Shown here one piece after another: positions 1 through 13,903 of a stretch of DNA of 42,324 nucleotides (position 1 is its first letter; every line of letters begins with the position of its first letter). Location: NCBI GenBank assembly GCA_002793215.1, contig PFPU01000126.1, forward strand, positions 1-42,324, given 5' to 3'. This stretch comes from Flavobacteriales bacterium CG_4_10_14_0_2_um_filter_35_18. GTDB taxonomy: Bacteria; Bacteroidota; Bacteroidia; Flavobacteriales; Flavobacteriaceae. The notes under the pieces are model-generated. The model was not told where the DNA came from and made no database searches. It saw only the letters and a program-made list of their open reading frames with translations. The position numbers and the translations under genes were made by a program.

Positions 1-1758
1 AGTATTTGTTGATTCTTGTAATTTATTGTTTTTATATTGAGACATAGCTAACCAAGTAAGGTTTTCAATGTGATATGTACTTTCTTTAAGTAATTGATTT
101 AAAACAGATTCAGCCTTTTTAAAATCGCCAACATAAAATAAAGATTTTGCTAAATCTATGCCTGCTGAATTTTGTTCTGAATTTTTTATAAATTCTCTAA
201 AATAAATATTCGCTAAAACCTCCTCATTACTTAATATTAACTGATTAGCGGCAAAAAAATAAATTGCTAGCCATGCGTCCTTATCCATTTTTAATTTAAA
301 TGATTCTAAGGTTTTCTTTAAATCATTAAAATTTCCCAGTCTTATTTTAGCTGCAATTAAAGTGTGAAATAAATAACTATTTTCTGACGAAACCGTTATG
401 TTGGCTAATAAATTTTCTACTTCCTTATATTTTTTTAATTCAATATTGGCAATTGATTTTAAATAGATTCGGTATTTACAATAGGTACAATTTTCTAAAT
501 CCATTTTATCCATCGGAATCTTTTGAAAAATGCTATCAACATCTATAGGTTTATTGACAAATTGAATGGCCACCGCCATTGTACTTTCATTAGATTCTAA
601 ATCGTAAGGTGCAAAATTATATTCATAAAGTATTGATTTATAAATTTTTTTGTTATTTCCTTCTAGTAATGCTTGGTATAAATTAAGTAAATTTTGTTGT
701 CTATGATTGTTGTATGCCGGAATTATTAGGGCTCTTCTTAAAGAATCGGCTATGTGATACTGTCCAGTATTGTAATAATTGGCAATGCGCAGCACTTTAG
801 GTTCAAAATAACTGGAATCAATTTCAATCGCTTTGTTCAAATATTCTAAGCTCAACTTTCGTTTGTCTAAATTTGCTTTGGCGTTAAGTACATATTTATA
901 GGCTTCATATTTGGGCGGAAATTCTTGCAGATTTTCATTTTTTTTATCTTCGGTTATTAAATAACCTAAAATAAGTTGTTTTAAAGATTCCATGCAAACC
1001 AATGGATCATTGATATCACAAGAAATACTTTTAAATGAGATGAGAACTTTATTAAATTCACCATCTGATATAGAACATTGAAATAATAAGGTGCTATCCT
1101 TTAAAAAATAATTGCCAGATATTAATTTTCCAGGTTTAAAATAAGCTTTTACAATATCATAATCGGCTGTTTTATAAGTGTTTGTATTGATAATTTTAGA
1201 ATAATCTTCAATTACTTGTGGTGATACCGTTTGACCGATTTGATTTTCAGTAATGCCATGAATTAACCAATCGGCTACCATTTTACCGATGATATCATAT
1301 TTTACATCTCCAGTATTATTACCAAATTTTAAAATTGCTATTTTATCATTTACAATAGTGCTTACCAATTTTGGTTCAGAACTGGTAAACTTATTATTGA
1401 TAATAATTATAATGATAAAGATAGATAATAAACTGGTTATCAAACTAAATGTAAAATACATTTTTTTAAAAGAACTCTTTTTATAAGTGTATATTTTTAT
1501 ATCAGCTTCTGAATCATCAATCGTCTTTGAATTTTTTTCAAGCACTAACAAATGAAACCGCCAAACCAAAAAAATATTTATTGGAAACCCTAAAATAAGT
1601 ATTAATAAAAGAATGGTAACCGAAGTTTTTGGTAAACCTAATGGTTCGGCAGTAATCGCTAATACTTGAAGAAGAACCCAACTAGATACAAGATAAATAG
1701 AGAGTTTTTTAAAAACTTCCTTATCTAAACACTCATTAAAAAAAACTTTTAAATTCAT
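1..1758 (-). CDS. TolB-like/TPR membrane-anchored protein, 5' part only
   Basis: An open frame of exactly 586 codons runs from ATG at 1758 to the left edge without a stop, so the C-terminus is missing. Residues about 20-40 (LSIYLVSSWVLLQVLAI) and 45-68 form two membrane segments of the kind seen at the N-terminus of Bacteroidota TPR/adenylate-cyclase-like proteins. A third helix at about 101-122 ends in a run of isoleucines. Residues 138-170 (IAILKFGNNTGD, then VADWLIHGIT) look like the start of a TolB/FlgO-like domain. From about residue 270 the protein is helical with TPR-like spacing (YLNKAIEIDSSYFEPK is one clear unit). No HTH or cyclase domain is visible in the part present. The TPR part probably lies outside the cytoplasm and binds protein partners, but that is inference. 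It is divergent from the repeat peptide gene at 1866, with 107 bp between starts. Confidence 0.72.
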   Translation of the reverse strand, partial: MNLKVFFNECLDKEVFKKLSIYLVSSWVLLQVLAITAEPLGLPKTSVTILLLILILGFPINIFLVWRFHLLVLEKNSKTIDDSEADIKIYTYKKSSFKKMYFTFSLITSLLSIFIIIIIINNKFTSSEPKLVSTIVNDKIAILKFGNNTGDVKYDIIGKMVADWLIHGITENQIGQTVSPQVIEDYSKIINTNTYKTADYDIVKAYFKPGKLISGNYFLKDSTLLFQCSISDGEFNKVLISFKSISCDINDPLVCMESLKQLILGYLITEDKKNENLQEFPPKYEAYKYVLNAKANLDKRKLSLEYLNKAIEIDSSYFEPKVLRIANYYNTGQYHIADSLRRALIIPAYNNHRQQNLLNLYQALLEGNNKKIYKSILYEYNFAPYDLESNESTMAVAIQFVNKPIDVDSIFQKIPMDKMDLENCTYCKYRIYLKSIANIELKKYKEVENLLANITVSSENSYLFHTLIAAKIRLGNFNDLKKTLESFKLKMDKDAWLAIYFFAANQLILSNEEVLANIYFREFIKNSEQNSAGIDLAKSLFYVGDFKKAESVLNQLLKESTYHIENLTWLAMSQYKNNKLQESTNT

Positions 1759-1865
1759 ATATTGGCAATAAAAATCTACTGAAATTAAGAAATAATAAAT
1801 TACTTATTTGGTTCTTTAAAATAAAATGCCTAATATAGACAAATTTTTAACTAAAAAAAATTACT

Positions 1866-2009
1866 ATGGCTAATCAAAAAAATCAAAAAACAGCAAATTC
1901 GGGTATTACTATTGACCCTAAAAAAGGCAATGCTAATTCGGGCATTACCATTGACCCTAAAAAAGGTAATGCTAATTCGGGCATTACCATTGACCCTAAA
2001 AAAACCTAG
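1866..2009 (+). CDS. 47-residue tandem-repeat peptide, function unknown
   Basis: ATG at 1866 to TAG at 2007-2009 encodes 47 residues. After a short polar leader (MANQKNQKTA) the unit NSGITIDPKKGNA occurs twice in full, followed by a third copy ending NSGITIDPKKT. The units differ at DNA level only by synonymous third-position changes (GGT/GGC, ATT ACT/ATT ACC, GGC/GGT), which points to selection on the peptide. The product is basic and hydrophilic, has no cysteine, no signal peptide and no membrane segment. Two terminator-like hairpins follow directly and the first includes the stop codon, supporting an independent transcription unit. I do not recognise the family. It could be a ligand or scaffold peptide, or the precursor of a modified peptide, but no maturation enzyme lies beside it. 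Confidence 0.62.
   Translation: MANQKNQKTANSGITIDPKKGNANSGITIDPKKGNANSGITIDPKKT
1896..2006 (+). repeat. Three tandem 39-nt units in frame (2 full, 1 partial)
   Basis: Units lie at 1896-1934, 1935-1973 and 1974-2006. They are contiguous, a multiple of three long, and in the reading frame of the 47-residue gene. Unit 2 differs from unit 1 at three synonymous positions. Unit 3 keeps the first 30 bases and then ends in a Thr codon before the stop. The lack of spacers excludes a CRISPR array. Confidence 0.9.
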
Positions 2010-2068
2010 TCAAACTAGGGTTTATTTTAATCATACAAAAGGCGTTAACAAATTGATTAACGCCTTTT
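2002..2068 (+). terminator. Two consecutive hairpins; the second probably bidirectional
   Basis: Hairpin 1 pairs CCTAG (2005-2009, containing the TAG stop codon) with CTAGG (2015-2019) across TCAAA, extended by flanking AAA/TTT and followed by a T-rich stretch. Hairpin 2 pairs AAAAGGCGTTAA (2037-2048) with TTAACGCCTTTT (2057-2068) around an 8-nt loop. It has A tracts and T tracts on both sides, so it can also serve the converging EamA gene that ends at 2086. Confidence 0.8.
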
Positions 2069-6981: not shown

Positions 6982-8298
6982 TTACTTTTTTGAACTAACT
7001 TCCGCTTTATGCTGAAGCAGATAATTTGCTACTAATTTATCTATCAATTCATCTTTTGTCAGGTGGTGAAAAATTGTTTTAATCTTATCTTTTAAATCGG
7101 ATGAAATTTCGTGATTTGGCTTTGTTTTAAAAAGCTGTTTTGCCCACAAAATGGCGTTATTTTCTTCAACACTTGCCGAATTAGGCTTTTCTAATTCTTT
7201 AAAATCAAGGCCTAAGGTTAAGTTAAAAGCACTTAATTTTTCTTCTTCCTCTTCTTGAATAACGCATAGTGAAAGGCCCTTTGCTCCTGCTCTAGCCGTT
7301 CGTCCACTGCGATGAACGTAAGTTTCGGCAAGTTCAGGTAAATGATAATTAACCACATAACTAACTTCTTTAACATCAATACCTCTTGCGGCTAAATCGG
7401 TTGCTACCAAAAGGTTGATATGACCTTCTCTAAATTGAGCCATTATACGGTCGCGAATGGGCTGTGTTAAACTGCCGTGAATGGCACCACAAGAAAACCT
7501 ATTAATGGCCAAATTTTTTGCCAGCTTGGCAACTGCCGCCTTAGTTTTACAAAAAATAATGCCGCGTTGGTTTTCTTTTGAAGCTAAAAAATGCATTAAT
7601 ATATTTAGTTTTTCGATGGGTTTTACCACAATAAATTGATGTTCAATTTCTTGATTGCCTATGGTTTGCATATCAACGCTGACTTGAATGAGCTGTTTCG
7701 ACAAATAATTTTGAATCAACTGTTTTATTGCTCCAGGAAGTGTTGCCGAAAATAAAAAGGTGCGCCTTTGTTTTGGTAATTCCGCAATTATTTCATCTAA
7801 GCCCTCTTTTAAAGCGCTGAGCATTTCATCGGCTTCATCTAAAACCAAATACTTAGCATGCTTAATATCAATGGCTTTTCGCTTTATTAAGTCAATTAAA
7901 CGCCCTGGAGTTGCCACTACAATATGAGTGGTATTTAACAAATTTTCAATTTGTGGCTTTATAGGAATGCCACCGCAAGTTGCAACAATGACCAAATTTG
8001 GAAGGTATTTTGCATAAGTCTGTAAATTGCTAAAAATCTGATTTCCTAACTCCCGAGTTGGTACTAAAATAAGGACTTGAATGTACTGATCTTTAAAGTC
8101 AATTAACTGTAATAAAGGCAAACCAAAAGCAGCCGTTTTACCCGTTCCTGTTTTGGCTAAACCAACAAAATCTTCGGTTTTTGTAAGTAAAACCGGAATT
8201 GTTTTTTGCTGTATTTCGGTTGGTTCAGTTATATTTAAATCGGCTAAAGCCTTTGTTAAGGGTGCTAAAATACCTAGTTTGGTGAATGATTTTGACAT
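6982..8298 (-). CDS. DEAD-box RNA helicase (helicase 1, canonical DEAD)
   Basis: The 438-residue protein shows every core motif in order: Q motif (FTKLGI...EPTEIQQKTIP), motif I AKTGTGKT, Ia PTREL, Ib TPGR, motif II DEAD in LDEADEML, motif III SAT, motif V ARGID and motif VI HRSGRTARAG. The C-terminal tail of about 70 residues is helical and charged, with no recognised RNA-binding domain. It is expected to unwind or remodel short RNA duplexes with ATP in the cytoplasm, during ribosome assembly or mRNA turnover. It lies only 16 nt downstream of helicase 2, so the two are very likely co-transcribed, and the hairpin at 6913-6945 ends the unit. Similar in type to RhlE/CsdA proteins, but I cannot assign an orthologue. 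Confidence 0.93.
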   Translation of the reverse strand: MSKSFTKLGILAPLTKALADLNITEPTEIQQKTIPVLLTKTEDFVGLAKTGTGKTAAFGLPLLQLIDFKDQYIQVLILVPTRELGNQIFSNLQTYAKYLPNLVIVATCGGIPIKPQIENLLNTTHIVVATPGRLIDLIKRKAIDIKHAKYLVLDEADEMLSALKEGLDEIIAELPKQRRTFLFSATLPGAIKQLIQNYLSKQLIQVSVDMQTIGNQEIEHQFIVVKPIEKLNILMHFLASKENQRGIIFCKTKAAVAKLAKNLAINRFSCGAIHGSLTQPIRDRIMAQFREGHINLLVATDLAARGIDVKEVSYVVNYHLPELAETYVHRSGRTARAGAKGLSLCVIQEEEEEKLSAFNLTLGLDFKELEKPNSASVEENNAILWAKQLFKTKPNHEISSDLKDKIKTIFHHLTKDELIDKLVANYLLQHKAEVSSKK

Positions 8299-8314
8299 TT
8301 TTTCTCGTTTCTCG

Positions 8315-9664
8315 TTACTTCTTTTTGTTGCGCAAATTAAAATTTTTATCCCCTCTTGTAAGTGGTTTATGGTATTTTTTTGCTAAATCTCTCCGGTAAG
8401 ATCCTCCTTGATTTTCTTTGAGATTTTTTTCTTTCTTTTCGTGAAAACTGTTATCCGGTTTTAATTGCTCTGAATCTTTTCGCTCGGCATCGTGAATTTT
8501 TGGTTGCTCTTCGGGAATCAATTTTGTTGAAACGTCAACTTCTTGTGGAAAATCATTCATCGGAATTTCATAAGACATCAGTTTTTCAATGGCCTTTTTA
8601 TAAGCAGCTTCATTTTTTGTAAAAAACAAAATGGAAGTTCCTGTTTGAGAGGCTCTTCCGGTTCTACCGATGCGGTGCATATAATTTTCGGGATAATGTG
8701 GTGTGTCAAAATTGATAACATGGGTAATTTTATTTAAATCTAAACCACGAGCCATCACGTCGGTAGCGATTATAATTCGGTTTTTACCTTCATCAAATTG
8801 CGCAATTGAACGCATTCGATAATTTTGAGTTTTATTAGCGTGAATCACACAACATTCTGAACCAAATTCAGCTTCAAGTGCTTCAAATAACCAATCGGCT
8901 TGTTTTTTTTGAGCTACAAATACCAGCACTTTACCAAATTTTTTACGGTCATTTAACAAATGTGACAACAAATTGATTTTTGTATAAAAATTTTTAACCG
9001 GATAGCATTGTTGTGAAATATTTTCTAAAGGCGTTCCGCTTACCGCCATCGAAATTTTAATAGGCATCGAAAAGTAATCATCAATTAAGGCATCTACATC
9101 CTCTGTCATCGTTGCCGAAAACATGATATTTTGCCTGCGTTCGGGGAGCAATTCGAAAATGTTTTTCAGCTGAAATCGGAAACCTAAATCTAACATCACA
9201 TCCACTTCATCAATTACCAATTTTTTAATTGCTTTTAGCTGTAAAGCCCTGCTAATCACCAAATCGTATAAGCGACCTGGCGTTGCCACAATAATATCTA
9301 CCCCCTTTGCAAGGGCTGTTCTTTGTGAGTTTATATTAACACCTCCAAAAACGCCAACAATGCGCAAATTGCAATATTTTGCATACAATTCAATTTGGGC
9401 AACCAATTGAATGACCAATTCGCGGGTAGGTACCAAAATTAAGATTCTGGCATTTAAATCTTTAGAAAACTTTAATTCTTGAAGAATTGGCAACATATAA
9501 GCCAAGGTTTTTCCGGTACCAGTTTGTGCAATTCCAACCATATCTTTGCCAGAAAGAATCACTGAAAAGGCTTCTTTTTGTATGGGAGTAAGCGTTTTAA
9601 AACCCAAATCATCAACGGCATGTTGCAATTGTTTTGAAAGGTTTAATAGGTTAAAAGTATCCAT
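8315..9664 (-). CDS. DEAD-box family RNA helicase (helicase 2, DEVD variant)
   Basis: The 449-residue protein has Q motif (TLTPIQKEAF), motif I AQTGTGKT, Ia PTREL, Ib TPGR, motif III SAT, motif V ARGLD and motif VI HRIGRTGRA. Motif II reads DEVD (IDEVDVMLDLG) instead of DEAD; the two acidic ends and Glu needed for Mg-ATP are kept. The C-terminal 70 residues or so are strongly basic (RRDLAKKYHKPLTRG then NLRNKKK), as expected for a nonspecific RNA-binding tail, resembling RhlE-type helicases. It sits in the middle of three same-strand helicase genes, with 40 nt upstream and 16 nt downstream. Confidence 0.92.
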   Translation of the reverse strand: MDTFNLLNLSKQLQHAVDDLGFKTLTPIQKEAFSVILSGKDMVGIAQTGTGKTLAYMLPILQELKFSKDLNARILILVPTRELVIQLVAQIELYAKYCNLRIVGVFGGVNINSQRTALAKGVDIIVATPGRLYDLVISRALQLKAIKKLVIDEVDVMLDLGFRFQLKNIFELLPERRQNIMFSATMTEDVDALIDDYFSMPIKISMAVSGTPLENISQQCYPVKNFYTKINLLSHLLNDRKKFGKVLVFVAQKKQADWLFEALEAEFGSECCVIHANKTQNYRMRSIAQFDEGKNRIIIATDVMARGLDLNKITHVINFDTPHYPENYMHRIGRTGRASQTGTSILFFTKNEAAYKKAIEKLMSYEIPMNDFPQEVDVSTKLIPEEQPKIHDAERKDSEQLKPDNSFHEKKEKNLKENQGGSYRRDLAKKYHKPLTRGDKNFNLRNKKK

Positions 9665-9704
9665 CTAAATTGTATTATTTAAAGGTATTTATCTTTAAAA
9701 AGTC

Positions 9705-11015
9705 TTAAACTAGGTTGATTCTGACTTTTTTATTTTTTAGTTTAGTATTGTTTAACAGGCCAATAAGTTGATTTACTTTAAAACTTGAAACGGCTACAAA
9801 GGCGCAATCTTGTTTAAGTTCAATCATTCCTAATTCATCTTTTTCAAGGTGTCCTTGTTTTATGAATAAGCCGGCAATATCCCCTTTTGAGATTTTATCT
9901 TTGCGACCGCCCGAAATAAACAAAGTTTGCCAATCATTAGCTTCTGTCATTGTTTTATTTTCTATGATTTCAATTTTTGAATCTTTAATAAAATCGGGTA
10001 AATTTTCGCGTTCCCACTTTATAACATAAGCGGTACCGGCATGATTCATGCGAGCGGTTCTTCCGTTTCTATGGGTAAATTCCTGCACGCGGTGTGGCAA
10101 TTGATAATGGATGATAAATTTTAATTCTTGTATATCTAAACCTCTAGCAGCCAAATCGGTGGCAATAATGATTTGGTGTGTTTTATTTCTGAATTTTATC
10201 AGAGCGCGTTCTCTTTCAATTTGTTCCATCCCCCCAAAAAAACAACCGTGATTTATCTTATTTTCGGTAAGAAAATCGCTGACAATTTGAATGGTATCTT
10301 TAAAATTACAGAAAATAATTCCGGGTTCATTGCCAATGTGATTGAGCAAATTAACAAGGGTCTTTAACTTGTCTTTTGAAGGAGAAATAACTGTTTTTAG
10401 CTTTAATTGCGCAATGCCTTCCTCAAGATAATTGATGTAAAACGGATTTTCTAATCCTACAAATTTAGGAATTTCAATAGATTGGGTGGCTGAAGTTAGG
10501 ATTCGCTTTGAAACTTTTGGCAAAGCCAATACAATTTCATTCATATCTTCTTCAAAACCAATTTCTAAAGATTTATCAAATTCATCTAAAACTAACGTAT
10601 TGATATTTTGAATTGAAAAGCTTTCTTTTCGCAAATGATCGGCAATTCTACCCGGTGTGCCAACTAAAATTGTTGGAGGGTGTTTTAGTTCTAACTTATC
10701 TTTAGAAAACGGGCGACCTCCATAAACGGCATTGGCTTTAAAACCCGCACCCATATCTCTAATAACTTGTTCAATTTGAATGGCTAACTCACGTGAAGGA
10801 ACTAAAATAAGTACTTGAACCTGCGATAAAGCAAGCTCCAATTTATTGATAATTGGCAATAAAAAGGCAAAAGTTTTGCCCGTTCCTGTTGGAGATAGCA
10901 AGACAATATTTGAATGGTTTTCTATGGCCTTTTGGGCTTCTTCTTGCATCATATTGAGTTGTTTAATTCCCAATTTATCAAGAATATTTTTTTGTGTTTT
11001 AAAATGAGCGGACAT
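9705..11015 (-). CDS. DbpA-like DEAD-box helicase (helicase 3, DEFD variant)
   Basis: This 436-residue helicase has motif I SPTGTGKT, Ia PSREL (Ser for the usual Thr), Ib TPGR, motif II DEFD (LDEFDKSLE), motif III SAT, motif V ARGLD and motif VI HRNGRTAR. The last 75 residues or so (ISGGRKDKISKGDIAGL, later CAFVAVSSFKVNQL and KNKKVRINL) match the DbpA RNA-binding domain. In E. coli DbpA this domain recognises hairpin 92 of 23S rRNA and targets the helicase to large-subunit assembly; the same role is inferred here. It is the first gene of the three-helicase unit. A -7 box lies only 5 nt upstream of the ATG, suggesting a leaderless or near-leaderless mRNA. Confidence 0.9.
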   Translation of the reverse strand: MSAHFKTQKNILDKLGIKQLNMMQEEAQKAIENHSNIVLLSPTGTGKTFAFLLPIINKLELALSQVQVLILVPSRELAIQIEQVIRDMGAGFKANAVYGGRPFSKDKLELKHPPTILVGTPGRIADHLRKESFSIQNINTLVLDEFDKSLEIGFEEDMNEIVLALPKVSKRILTSATQSIEIPKFVGLENPFYINYLEEGIAQLKLKTVISPSKDKLKTLVNLLNHIGNEPGIIFCNFKDTIQIVSDFLTENKINHGCFFGGMEQIERERALIKFRNKTHQIIIATDLAARGLDIQELKFIIHYQLPHRVQEFTHRNGRTARMNHAGTAYVIKWERENLPDFIKDSKIEIIENKTMTEANDWQTLFISGGRKDKISKGDIAGLFIKQGHLEKDELGMIELKQDCAFVAVSSFKVNQLIGLLNNTKLKNKKVRINLV

Positions 11016-11019
11016 TTTG

Positions 11020-11027
11020 CAAAAGTA
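11020..11027 (-). promoter_or_regulatory. -7 box TACTTTTG for the three-helicase operon
   Basis: On the minus strand the sequence reads TACTTTTGCAAAATG, the ATG being the helicase 3 start. TACTTTTG fits TAnnTTTG, with the C often seen after it. The expected transcription start falls at or beside the start codon. No clear -33 element was seen. Confidence 0.5.
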
Positions 11028-11139
11028 CTGCTAATCTGCATAAGTCTGTTATTTTAATTTTTAGGGGTTATTTTAGGTAATTAGGATAAAAGATATTAAT
11101 TTCACGACAGAAAAAATTAATTTTTAAATAGTTAAGAGC

Positions 11140-11496
11140 GTGATACAAAAATTAAATTGGAATGCGATTCCTACCGAACAAGTCAACCCCATGATGGTGC
11201 GCCAAATGGTTTATGGCAAAGAAATTATGATTGTAAAAATGAGCTTTAAAGATGGTTTTGAAGTCCCTTGGCATCAACACCCTAATGAACAAATAAGTCA
11301 AATATTCAAAGGGATTTGTCGCTTTTGGCTTGCCAATCAAAGTGAATCTATTGATTTAAAAGCTGGTGAAATTCTCGTAATTCCTGCCAATGTTGCACAT
11401 AAAGCCTTGATGATTGGCGCTGTAGAAGCGGTAGATACTTTTTCACCTCCACGTCAAGATTGGCTTGATGGTACCGATAATTACTTAAAAAGATAG
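11140..11496 (+). CDS. Cupin-domain protein
   Basis: A 118-residue single-cupin protein. Cupin motif 1 is VPWHQHPNEQISQIFKG (His45, His47 and an acid/amide ligand at 50-51), and motif 2 is LKAGEILVIPANVAHKA (His87). These histidines are the usual metal ligands. The C-terminal FSPPRQDWL is common in small bacterial cupins of this kind. The start is GTG at 11140: an in-frame TAA at 11125 limits extension, and the next Met would remove the first strand. The stop is followed after 3 nt by the SDR gene, so the two form an operon. This operon sits in opposite orientation inside the helicase cluster. Substrate unknown. Confidence 0.82.
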   Translation: MIQKLNWNAIPTEQVNPMMVRQMVYGKEIMIVKMSFKDGFEVPWHQHPNEQISQIFKGICRFWLANQSESIDLKAGEILVIPANVAHKALMIGAVEAVDTFSPPRQDWLDGTDNYLKR

Positions 11497-11499
11497 ACT

Positions 11500-12264
11500 A
11501 TGGATTTAGGTTTATCCGATAAAGTTGCTTTTGTAGCGGCGTCAAGTCAGGGACTTGGCAAAGCGATTGCCTTAACTTTAGCAAAAGAAGGGGCGACCGT
11601 AATTATTTGTGGCAGAGAGGCCTCAACTTTAGCCCTTGCTAAAAAGGAGATTGAAACGGTTAGTTCAAAGCCCGTTTTAGCGCTTACGGGCGATTTATCA
11701 ATCGCTTCAAATCGCGAAAGCATTATAGCTAGGGTTTTAAAAAAGTTTAAAGTGGTTGATATTTTAGTTACCAACACGGGTGGTCCAAAATCGGGAACGT
11801 TTGAAACCTTGCATCAAGAAGATTGGGATCAAGCCTATCAATTATTGTTGGGAAGTGCTGTTGGATTAATCAGCGGATTGTTACCGGCCTTAAAAGCCTC
11901 AAAATCTGGACGCATCATTGCCATCACCTCACAGGCTGTAAAACAACCAGTTGACAATTTGATTCTTTCAAATGCAGTTCGCTCTTCGGTTGTTGGATTA
12001 ATAAAAACATTGGCTAATGAATTAGGTTGTTATAACATAACGGTCAATAATGTGATGCCCGGCTATACCGAAACTGCCCGTTTACAAAAACTGTTGCAAA
12101 GTAATCCTGAAATGGCAAATACTGTTAAAGATATTCCGCTTAAGCGTTTTGGTAAACCAGATGAATTGGCTGCCGCAGTTGCTTTTTTAGCCTCTGAACA
12201 AGCAAGTTATATCACTGGAGTTTCGTTGGCAGTAGATGGAGGATGGATAAAAAGTATGCTGTAA
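11500..12264 (+). CDS. Atypical short-chain dehydrogenase/reductase (FabG-like)
   Basis: The 254-residue protein has the SDR Rossmann fold: a cofactor-binding AASSQGLGKA near residues 13-22, GREAS after strand 2, TNTGG (91-95, replacing NNAG), and the family end GVSLAVDGG. The catalytic region has Ser144 (ITSQAVKQP) but no YxxxK: the equivalent positions read Ser157 and Arg161 in LILSNAVRSSV. This matches the known SDR branch of FabG-like proteins with imperfect cofactor and active-site motifs, so ordinary ketoreductase activity should not be assumed. It is translated 3 nt after the cupin gene, which suggests the two act on the same small molecule. It ends 4 nt before the converging helicase 4 gene. 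Confidence 0.85.
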   Translation: MDLGLSDKVAFVAASSQGLGKAIALTLAKEGATVIICGREASTLALAKKEIETVSSKPVLALTGDLSIASNRESIIARVLKKFKVVDILVTNTGGPKSGTFETLHQEDWDQAYQLLLGSAVGLISGLLPALKASKSGRIIAITSQAVKQPVDNLILSNAVRSSVVGLIKTLANELGCYNITVNNVMPGYTETARLQKLLQSNPEMANTVKDIPLKRFGKPDELAAAVAFLASEQASYITGVSLAVDGGWIKSML

Positions 12265-12268
12265 TTTT

Positions 12269-13387
12269 TTAGCTATTCGTTTCAATAAACCGAATATTTA
12301 AGGCTTTTTGAAAATTTTGAATTAAAGGCAGTTCGGTTGGAAGAATGAGTGCGATTGAATAGCCTGCTTTTCCGGCTCGCGCGGTTCTGCCACTGCGGTG
12401 TGTATAATATTCTAATTGTTCGGGCAATTGGTGGTGAATGACAAAAGCTAAATTATTAACGTCGATGCCACGTGCCGAAACATCTGTTGAAATTAAGATT
12501 TGAAGTTTGCCATTTTTAAAGGCGCGCATGGCTTTATCACGGTCACGTTGTTGCATATCACCTTCTAAAGCGGCAACCGAAAATCCCTCTAATTTTAGTT
12601 TTTCTGTCAAACTTTGTGTGCCGAGTTTTGTTCTACAAAAAATAATGCCCCGTTCACCACGTCGTTTATCTAATAAGGCAATTAAAACCTTTATTTTTTC
12701 TTTAACACTGGTTTTAATATATTGATGGGTGATGTTCGCATTGACCAAGGTGTTTTTGTTAATTTCAACCTTAGCCGCATTATTGCTCATAAATTTTTTG
12801 ATGATATTTTGAATTTCATCTGGCATTGTAGCCGAAAAAAGCCAAGTATTCCGTTTACCCGTTGTGTAGCGCAAAATACGATTTAAATCTTCTTTAAAGC
12901 CCATGCTGAGCATTTCATCGGCTTCATCTAAAACAATGGTTGATATGTGCGACAAGTCAACTTCACCACGTTCAATCAAATCTATAAGCCTTCCGGGAGC
13001 TGCAACAATAATATGCGTGGTTCGCTTTAAGGATTGAATTTGCTTTTCAATTTTTTCTCCGCCATAAACGCCTTCAATAAAGATTTTTTTATCAGAAAAC
13101 TTTGTGAATTTAAACAACTGTTTTTGAATTTGCTGAACAAGTTCTCGGGTTGGCGCTAAAATTAGGGATTGAATTGTAGGAGAATTTGAGTCTATTTGTT
13201 GCAAAATAGGCAGCCCAAATGCAGCGGTTTTACCAGTTCCGGTTTGTGCAAACCCAATAAAGTCAGTTTTTGAATTCAATAAAATTGGAATTGTTTTTTC
13301 CTGAATTTCGGTTGGATTTTTAATATCCAATTCTGCTAAGGCTTTTATAAATTCCGGATTGATTCCTAAGGCTGAAAATGATGACAT
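12269..13387 (-). CDS. DEAD-box RNA helicase (helicase 4, core only)
   Basis: The 372-residue protein consists almost only of the two RecA-like domains: Q motif (PTEIQEKTIPILL), motif I AQTGTGKT, Ia PTREL, Ib APGR (Ala for the usual Thr), motif II DEAD (LDEADEMLSMG), motif III SAT, motif V ARGID and motif VI HRSGRTARAG. It stops about 35 residues after motif VI, so it lacks the long C-terminal extension of DeaD/CsdA. Closest in type to helicase 1. It lies 66 nt downstream of the cold-shock-domain gene on the same strand with no strong terminator between them, so the promoter at 14091 probably drives both. A role in unwinding RNA at low temperature is inferred. Confidence 0.92.
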   Translation of the reverse strand: MSSFSALGINPEFIKALAELDIKNPTEIQEKTIPILLNSKTDFIGFAQTGTGKTAAFGLPILQQIDSNSPTIQSLILAPTRELVQQIQKQLFKFTKFSDKKIFIEGVYGGEKIEKQIQSLKRTTHIIVAAPGRLIDLIERGEVDLSHISTIVLDEADEMLSMGFKEDLNRILRYTTGKRNTWLFSATMPDEIQNIIKKFMSNNAAKVEINKNTLVNANITHQYIKTSVKEKIKVLIALLDKRRGERGIIFCRTKLGTQSLTEKLKLEGFSVAALEGDMQQRDRDKAMRAFKNGKLQILISTDVSARGIDVNNLAFVIHHQLPEQLEYYTHRSGRTARAGKAGYSIALILPTELPLIQNFQKALNIRFIETNS

Positions 13388-13405
13388 ATAAGGTTGTTTT
13401 TTAAA

Positions 13406-13438
13406 CTATTAAAATACGTGAGCCGTCTTGTTTAATAG
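13406..13438 (-). other. Weak intercistronic stem-loop
   Basis: CTATTAAA (13406-13413) and TTTAATAG (13431-13438) form an 8-bp AT-rich stem with a 17-nt loop between the cold-shock gene and helicase 4. It has a short T-rich stretch downstream on the minus strand. It could be an attenuator or a 3'-end stabiliser, but the stem is weak. Confidence 0.3.
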
Positions 13439-13453
13439 GAAAATATTTTGATT

Positions 13454-13903
13454 TTATATTTTTTTAACGCGAACGGCATTCATTCCTTTTAAACCGCGTT
13501 CGAGCTCAAAACTAACTTTATCATTTTCTTTAATTTCATCAATAAGGCCGCTAACGTGAACAAAATATTTTTCTTGAGAAAGTGCTTCTATAATAAAACC
13601 AAATCCTTTTGAGGAATCAAAGAATGAAACTTTACCCTGTTTTTCGGCAGATTCTTCTTCGCGGTCTTCTTTTTTAGGAACGCCAATTTCAATGCTTGAA
13701 GCATCAATTTTTATTTTATTTGCAGGATCTTGAGGGGTGTCGCTAAAATTGCCATATTCATCAACATAAACCAGCATATTTTCAAGACCGCCTCCTTTTG
13801 AACTCGCTTTTCGAGCGACACGTTTTTTTTCTTTGTCTTCTCTTTTTTTCAAAAGTTTTTTTTCTCTTTCAATCTTACTAAAGGTTTGTTGCGATTTAGC
13901 CAT
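13454..13903 (-). CDS. Cold-shock-domain protein with basic N-terminal extension
   Basis: The 149-residue protein has a C-terminal cold-shock domain (residues about 88-149) beginning GKVSFFDSSKGFGFI, which includes the RNP-1-like KGFGFI, followed by the RNP-2-like KYFVHVS. The first 40 residues are dominated by Lys, Arg and Glu (IEREKKLLKKREDKEKKR). They are followed by a short conserved-looking VYVDEYGNFSDTP and an acidic linker. This architecture, twice the size of CspA, is common in Flavobacteriia. The protein is expected to bind single-stranded RNA and melt structure. It precedes helicase 4 on the same strand and has an unusually long leader. Confidence 0.9.
   Translation of the reverse strand: MAKSQQTFSKIEREKKLLKKREDKEKKRVARKASSKGGGLENMLVYVDEYGNFSDTPQDPANKIKIDASSIEIGVPKKEDREEESAEKQGKVSFFDSSKGFGFIIEALSQEKYFVHVSGLIDEIKENDKVSFELERGLKGMNAVRVKKI

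Follow-up and report, generated by a model that had tools for sequence, protein, structure and literature searches.

Type IV Thoeris is a system in which a TIR protein makes N7-cADPR and this product activates a caspase-like protease (PMC12847820). In the EACC1-caspase two-gene conflict system, the gene for a single-span membrane protein precedes one whose product has a caspase at its N terminus and variable domains at its C terminus (Kaur et al., 2020; PMC7159879). The stretch of DNA analysed here, a contig of 42,324 nt from a Flavobacteriaceae genome (referred to as the window), carries close to one end a short repeat peptide gene. Genes of this kind are divergent companions at the head of a caspase operon of the Flavobacteriaceae. 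The operon is headed by C1 or C2, encodes the metacaspase-like protease C0 and often also TIR and PGDYG proteins. It belongs in kind with the described caspase/TIR conflict systems, judging by the parts of the sources that were available (PMC7159879, PMC8195603, PMC12799240, PMC12847820). The features of the window that concern this study are the following.

1-1758, minus strand: C1, a membrane protein by reading, with a TPR-like C-terminal part; cut by the contig start
1759-1865, no strand: divergent intergenic region of 107 nt between C1 and the peptide gene (the median gap is 107 nt, n=41)
1807-1838, plus strand: promoter-like element, TTTGG at 1807-1811 and TAATATAG at 1831-1838, from the recurrence of TA[AT]TATAG
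1866-2009, plus strand: 47-residue repeat peptide gene, an ORF from ATG to TAG (stop codon 2007-2009), with homologues and a third-position bias
1896-1934, 1935-1973 and 1974-2006, plus strand: three repeat units, the last one short, from ORF reading and Tandem Repeats Finder
2005-2019, plus strand: hairpin overlapping the stop codon, terminator-like on both strands, from folding and a terminator scan
2037-2068, no strand: hairpin with a 12-bp stem and A/T runs, terminator-like by reading, from folding; absent from the terminator-scan list

The peptide reads MANQKNQKTA, followed by NSGITIDPKKGNA, NSGITIDPKKGNA and NSGITIDPKKT, that is, ten leading residues and units of 13, 13 and 11 residues. 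A preliminary description of this DNA had reported a 47-residue frame made of a 13-residue repeat with exactly these units in frame. Tandem Repeats Finder places the array at 1896-2003 with a period of 39, 2.8 copies, 95% matches and a score of 195, while the runner-up among its five rows scores 47. The four differences between neighbouring units are all synonymous, as had been described, and all at codon position 3, and they are weak evidence when taken alone. At the position of the first motif K of most relatives, the peptide has N. Hairpins had been said to begin at the stop codon; the first one contains it, the second one lies downstream, and the region 2000-2075 folds with z = -5.4. Elsewhere in the window (6982-13903, minus strand) four DEAD-box-helicase-like ORFs lie within 6.5 kb and adjoin a cold-shock-domain-like ORF, both assignments being made from translations only.

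Relatives of the peptide were sought in 397 Flavobacteriaceae genomes and in further genome sets, all of which are samples. With the single peptide as query, 50 of the 397 family genomes matched at E up to 1, the window's included. Three others were accepted on reading of the frame (G191, G336, G102), and in each a free-standing ORF of 46-47 residues carries three units; six further loci were rejected on reading, and the remainder was judged from the match table. A pattern scan over the contigs of 84,980 species gave 91 stretches, which led to six loci: two in Altibacter (one of them A. lentus), one in Croceitalea, one in a MAG filed under Flavobacterium sp. and two in other Flavobacteriaceae MAGs. 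A nine-row peptide profile matched 18 of the 397 family genomes at E 0.05, and the window's and 11 others were accepted by frame, among them further, more divergent members. A 24-residue frame in G383 was rejected, and G025, G069, G137, G223 and G288 are weak table entries, two of which were scanned and showed no motif. This profile misses most divergent arrays found through C1 (see below), so a negative peptide search carries little weight. The one other genome from the genus of the window gave no match to peptide or C1. In the order sample a four-row profile matched 22 of 296 genomes at E 0.1, the window's among them; three of these loci were read and judged to be chance matches, and the others were judged from the table. 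The nine-row profile matched 9 of 295 genomes in the class sample, namely the window's and eight with weak matches. Searches of Pfam and NCBIfam with four peptides gave nothing above curated cut-offs, and a PDB sequence search with the peptide gave no match. On plasmids, seven records with weak partial matches were discarded (best E 0.05, in Staphylococcus Ig-like genes), and none of 46 pattern stretches in viral contigs was confirmed.

The preliminary description had predicted homologues with variable copy number, and these are indeed present in Flavobacteriaceae. The set comprises 46 peptides, of which 39 are arrays and seven are not, with copy numbers from one (the motif then lying near the C terminus) to 34 (G231). 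The single motif copy is seen in L130, L131, L132, L134, L135, L147 and L157. The unit period ranges from 7 to 17 aa, and the units differ widely between genomes: there is a heptamer (GIKSKTG), there are octamers (DGGGINPK, DSGSIIPK, EGPGLTSK, SGPVIKSK, TGPGVKSK) and 12- to 14-mers (SKPGGSIKPQGT, NSGITIDPKKGNA, KPGANIQPKTQATS), and 16- and 17-mers also occur. They share the loose pattern K-x-G-x-x-[I/V/L]-x-[P/S]-K; two peptides lack any K/R-x-G, namely the octamer peptide of G283 and, in G199, the one on the C1 side. Over the 46 peptides, K, G, P, S, N, D, T, Q and E make up 79% of the residues and aromatic residues 0.3%, and the product is small and probably unfolded. Two peptide/C1/C0 operons stand in tandem in L095 and L096, with a unit that differs between the two; the second peptide is 141 aa long in one of the genomes and 105 aa long in the other, a congener.

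Purifying selection on the repeat had been proposed from the window's silent differences, and the whole class of arrays bears this out. Across all 39 arrays the period is divisible by 3, and the 711 mismatches between units fall 59/23/629 at codon positions 1/2/3, with the array ranges chosen from DNA alone. This count supersedes an earlier estimate (0.52 synonymous, 0.017 nonsynonymous), which was biased by ranges picked by protein identity. The third-position bias indicates that the copies are not fresh duplicates and that each is kept at nearly the same protein sequence.

The promoter-like word TA[AT]TATAG lies at -31 to -39 in 35 of the 46 peptide genes, compared with 2.7% in mono-nucleotide shuffles. 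The word is missing from 11 of the 46 and occurs 65 times elsewhere within the loci. Of a longer word, ACTAATATAG, 26 copies stand upstream of peptides and a single one lies elsewhere, counting both strands of the 616 kb; the window has CCTAATATAG and no exact ACTAATATAG. The single occurrence outside known peptides led to a further peptide (L157), the frame of which ends in KPGVIIRPVGD. In L154 a second TTTnnCTAATATAG word lies at position 2163 of the plus strand, apart from the known peptide gene. The start-to-start gap in 41 C1-headed cases, a set that includes cases found through the peptide, was 75 nt once, 100-113 nt in 37 and 126-130 nt in three.

C1, a protein of about 655 aa, carries TPR-like repeats and, as read from its sequence, membrane segments near the N terminus. 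The Pfam model TPR_19 is above cut-off in the C1 of L091 and sub-threshold in the window copy, which matches the C1 profile at E 7.9e-248, being itself a member of that profile. C2, of about 176 aa, is made up of a single long helix at the N terminus and a helical domain, and has a weak Pfam match to DED (death-effector, E 0.018). Most of the top structure rows for its C-terminal domain are HEPN, with a best Z of 7.4 (rmsd 3.4, 90-94 residues aligned), a value under 8 for a helical bundle, and a best Foldseek E of only 0.2; the folded domain, as modelled, may be HEPN-like. C0 of L091 has about 748 aa and Pfam matches to caspase (Peptidase_C14, 3e-21), DUF676 hydrolase (1e-8) and TPR-S (2e-16). 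C0 is mostly fused to hydrolase and TPR domains, and a subgroup with a short C0 of about 460-510 aa matches the caspase part. The catalytic His and Cys motifs of metacaspase/paracaspase-type C14 peptidases are present in 18/18 C0 proteins, in which YSGHG, DCCHA, D24 and D150 are invariant. The solved structures nearest to the C0 model, a poor one with a mean pLDDT of 59.8, are metacaspases and MALT1; the model also matches LGN TPR structures, and TPRs match each other readily. C3 is a PGDYG-like protein of about 74 aa (26.3 bits in Pfam vs a cut-off of 27) that recurs in the operon, e.g., at 13053-13271 of L091. PADLOC matched the TIR proteins and C0 (in L091 a caspase model at 2e-14 and, more weakly, LmuA), not C1, C2 or C3.

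The contig ends inside the window's C1, so the rest of its operon is out of view, and no C0 was found in the 90%-complete genome. The preliminary description had seen no modifying enzyme or exporter beside the gene. Among the recurring neighbours, too, no modifying enzyme or peptide exporter was recognised, with ten proteins scanned with Pfam; what had been overlooked is the divergent C1, the head gene of the caspase operon. A multi-core RiPP precursor would be expected beside a modifying enzyme, protease or exporter; near the peptide a caspase-type protease and two types of permease recur, a TauE-type permease in four loci and a gluconate-permease-like gene in five. In L094, L095, L096 and L098 the operon adjoins two further shared clusters of threonyl-tRNA synthetase-like and small initiation-factor-like genes (by reading), and three of these four loci also have a ribosomal-protein-L20-like gene, possibly a preferred site.

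We compared the window and 17 further loci. Each of the 17 others has C0; with the window counted, C1 is present in 15 of 18, C2 in 13, the PGDYG protein in 12 and a TIR cluster in 10, with several of the regions ending at contig or fetched-region edges. As the 17 loci had come from peptide searches, the search was repeated through C1. This gave 45 matches in 40 of the 397 family genomes; 14 lie in the window or in regions already collected and the other 31 in 29 new regions. Among these 31, the peptide accompanies 26 of the 26 C1 genes with C0 next in line and 0 of the 5 without it (Fisher test, 5.9e-6, relatedness ignored). The 26th peptide is the one in L157 found through the promoter word, where C1 is fragmented, and in L155 the C1 start is unaligned and the peptide lies farther from the assumed start. 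The peptide-free C1 genes are those of L133, L138 and L156 and the extra upstream C1 of L139 and L146, with no peptide detected less than 700 nt away from any of the five; in L156 only about 1.8 kb are visible downstream of C1. Motif strings near C0-less C1 in L138 (between stops) and L139 (interrupted by a stop) were chance-like and were rejected. In L139 and L146, which have the additional C1 copy, C0 sits behind the second C1.

In L054, L055, L056 and G199 the peptide faces C2, about 200 nt away, rather than C1, so that the peptide tracks the protease operon rather than C1. G199 has in addition a separate C1, and divergent from it a second peptide gene that encodes a single motif and lies behind the same promoter word. 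A C1 about 5 kb from the C2-C0 operon of L090 has its own divergent peptide, acidic and with a single motif, behind the same promoter word. As a control, 2 of 301 other locus genes have a divergent repeat ORF, both of them antisense readings of the peptide array. The 26 C0 loci from the C1 search have a TIR match in 16 cases (three below 50 bits; the regions end at about 7.5 kb or at contig ends) and C2 in eight. In the class sample C1 was found in 1 of 198 genomes, the window's own, and plasmids and phages gave no C1 match. All C1 genes detected in these samples belong to Flavobacteriaceae.

A short frame of low complexity could in principle be functionless, since slippage might create single arrays, or it could encode a secreted or modified peptide that acts alone and has nothing to do with the operon. 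The codon-position bias, the fixed position, the promoter word and the tracking of C0 speak against both and in favour of a functional peptide, and we consider such an origin highly improbable. Of the functions that the preliminary description had offered, a binding peptide is the one we favour, and a secreted signal or a modified-peptide precursor is less likely.

The peptides were then compared with the proteins of their own operons by local alignment, against shuffled pairings. The own peptide scored 944 with C2 vs 617 for shuffled pairs (sd 61, 0/5000, 18 loci) and 968 with its own C2 linker vs 650 (sd 61, 0/20000, 21 loci). Excesses were also seen with the C1 linker (863 vs 773, sd 30, 24/10000, 41 pairs) and with C3 (485 vs 449, sd 14, 31/5000, 23 loci), there was a weak one with TIR (347/5000, 25 loci), and none with C0 (2008/5000) or C4b (3984/5000). 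Five related loci (G201, G368, G365, G283, G209) account for the C2 signal; their C2 linkers hold near-copies of their own octamers, for example AKDGGGINPKDGGGINPK alongside the peptide (DGGGINPK)9. Within this clade alone the pairing is specific at 344/20000, and the 16 C2 loci outside it show no genome-specific match (364 vs 365 shuffled, 10758/20000). A Lys with S, G, D or E behind it is present in 21 of 21 C2 linkers, compared with 61.5% of random C2 segments. In the C2 of L054 it is K80, which lies between the folded domain and the long N-terminal helix, where pLDDT is under 50 and the chain is probably flexible.

Where C2 is missing and C0 is short, the C1 linker matches the peptide at 294 vs 250 (sd 16, 108/20000, 8 loci), this set of eight related loci having been defined after seeing the result. 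The motif [SA]K[SDEG] occurs in the C1 linkers of all eight, in 0 of 18 loci with C2 and in 4 of 15 others. ASSKSGID is found in both peptide and C1 linker of G210, and in G195 SAI replaces SGI in both. The mean synonymous difference between C2 and peptide in four loci was 0.67, 0.91, 0.35 and 1.11, compared with 0.63, 0.40, 0.40 and 0.55 inside the peptide of the same loci. In L143 one C2 unit is identical to a peptide unit in DNA, so gene conversion may be the source of the likeness there. Thus, in part of the loci a motif is shared between the peptide and the cytosolic-side linker of C2, or of C1 if C2 is missing.

We take D24 and D150 of C0 to correspond to the basic-residue S1 pocket of metacaspases and MALT1, and we assume Lys/Arg cleavage specificity for C0 from what is known of these proteases, which the two invariant Asp fit. 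Given this likeness and the two Asp, a Lys motif in a flexible linker is a plausible site of recognition or cleavage, and the peptide a multi-copy mimic of it. In 15 of 44 loci, Pro is the residue that most often stands behind the motif Lys/Arg of the peptide, whereas the corresponding Lys in the C2 linkers is followed by S, G, D or E (by reading), which leans towards a poorly cleavable decoy and not a pure substrate. On this ground our leading reading, with a probability of roughly 0.4, is that the peptide is an unfolded multivalent mimic of the protease recognition site that binds and probably restrains C0.

In such a mechanism C0 would recognise a Lys site, [S/A]-K-[S/G/D/E], in the linker of C2 or C1, and the peptide would present between one and about 34 mimics of that site, roughly of the shared pattern given above. 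Acting as a decoy or pseudosubstrate inhibitor, it would bind C0 with avidity and keep it away from the membrane substrate. If the peptide were lost in infection or stress, C0 would be free to act, along with the hydrolase and TIR effectors. More tentatively, the array, the membrane-protein linker and the protease specificity might co-evolve by lineage, a mimic array of variable copy number governing the caspase, which would make it a new class of multivalent regulator.

The same Lys residues could instead mark the peptide as the substrate, cut by a Lys/Arg-specific protease into identical signal oligopeptides, like multi-copy pheromone precursors, with C1, the TIR proteins or neighbouring cells as the target. 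Units that are the same in protein and not in DNA would suit this, as would octamer arrays such as (DGGGINPK)n with one Lys per unit. Bonds before Pro are, however, poorly cut by Lys/Arg proteases of the metacaspase/MALT1 type, which counts against cleavage in the 15 loci, an argument weakened by the fact that no peptide has Pro behind every Lys/Arg. Moreover, seven of the 46 peptides are not arrays, and no receptor or peptide exporter was recognised, although the two permease types recur. We consider processing into signals unlikely.

Equally unlikely, in our view, is that the peptide is a multivalent scaffold that gathers C0 and activates it by proximity, with the C2 or C1 linker as a membrane dock for the same site. 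Activation by proximity is common among caspases, C0 has TPR repeats, and a valency that varies up to 34 units would agree with such a role; the single motif copy in seven operons does not. As the units vary widely between genera and are constant within a gene, the array could also be a bait, whose destruction would report a phage protease or other invader factor attacking the guarded linker motif. TIR and caspase genes occur in anti-phage operons, yet no invader protein was identified and neither peptide nor C1 had a match in the phage collection, and we regard a bait as quite improbable. We continue to prefer a decoy or inhibitor of C0.

To our knowledge, substrate choice and restraint of bacterial caspases are largely open. 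In these operons, candidate recognition motifs can be read directly from the genome, where a single gene beside the protease holds as many as 34 near-identical copies. A membrane partner repeats the motif in some of the loci, and specificity, inhibition and co-evolution thereby become testable across many genera. The locus also illustrates that a short repetitive gene, easily taken for noise, can be a constant member of an operon.

What the operon may share with type IV Thoeris is gene content, caspase-like and TIR genes standing together in one operon; TIR was seen in only 16 of the 26 loci. As far as the available parts of that description go, C1, C2, the PGDYG protein, the hydrolase/TPR-S fusion and the divergent repeat peptide set the present operon apart. 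The gene order of the EACC1-caspase system fits the C2-bearing loci (8 of 26), where C2 has its long N-terminal helix and C0 an N-terminal caspase; this is a likeness of architecture. That system is prevalent in actinobacteria, with no repeat peptide mentioned in the parts of the paper at hand (PMC7159879), whereas the present one is found in Flavobacteriaceae. In the canu caspase-nuclease loci a MALT1-like caspase likewise acts on an operon partner, as C0 would here, but the partner is a nuclease and the accessible text describes no peptide array (PMC12799240). The FxSxx-COOH/VMAP systems also combine a small variable peptide and a peptidase in a conflict operon; there the peptidase is a zincin, radical-SAM enzymes take part in some types and no tandem array is described in the portions available (PMC7159879). 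The literature on caspase/TIR conflict or defence systems, on the motif strings and on PGDYG, with partial journal coverage and sources in part, gave no description of the peptide. Taken together, we regard it as possibly a new type of regulator within an operon of a known kind.
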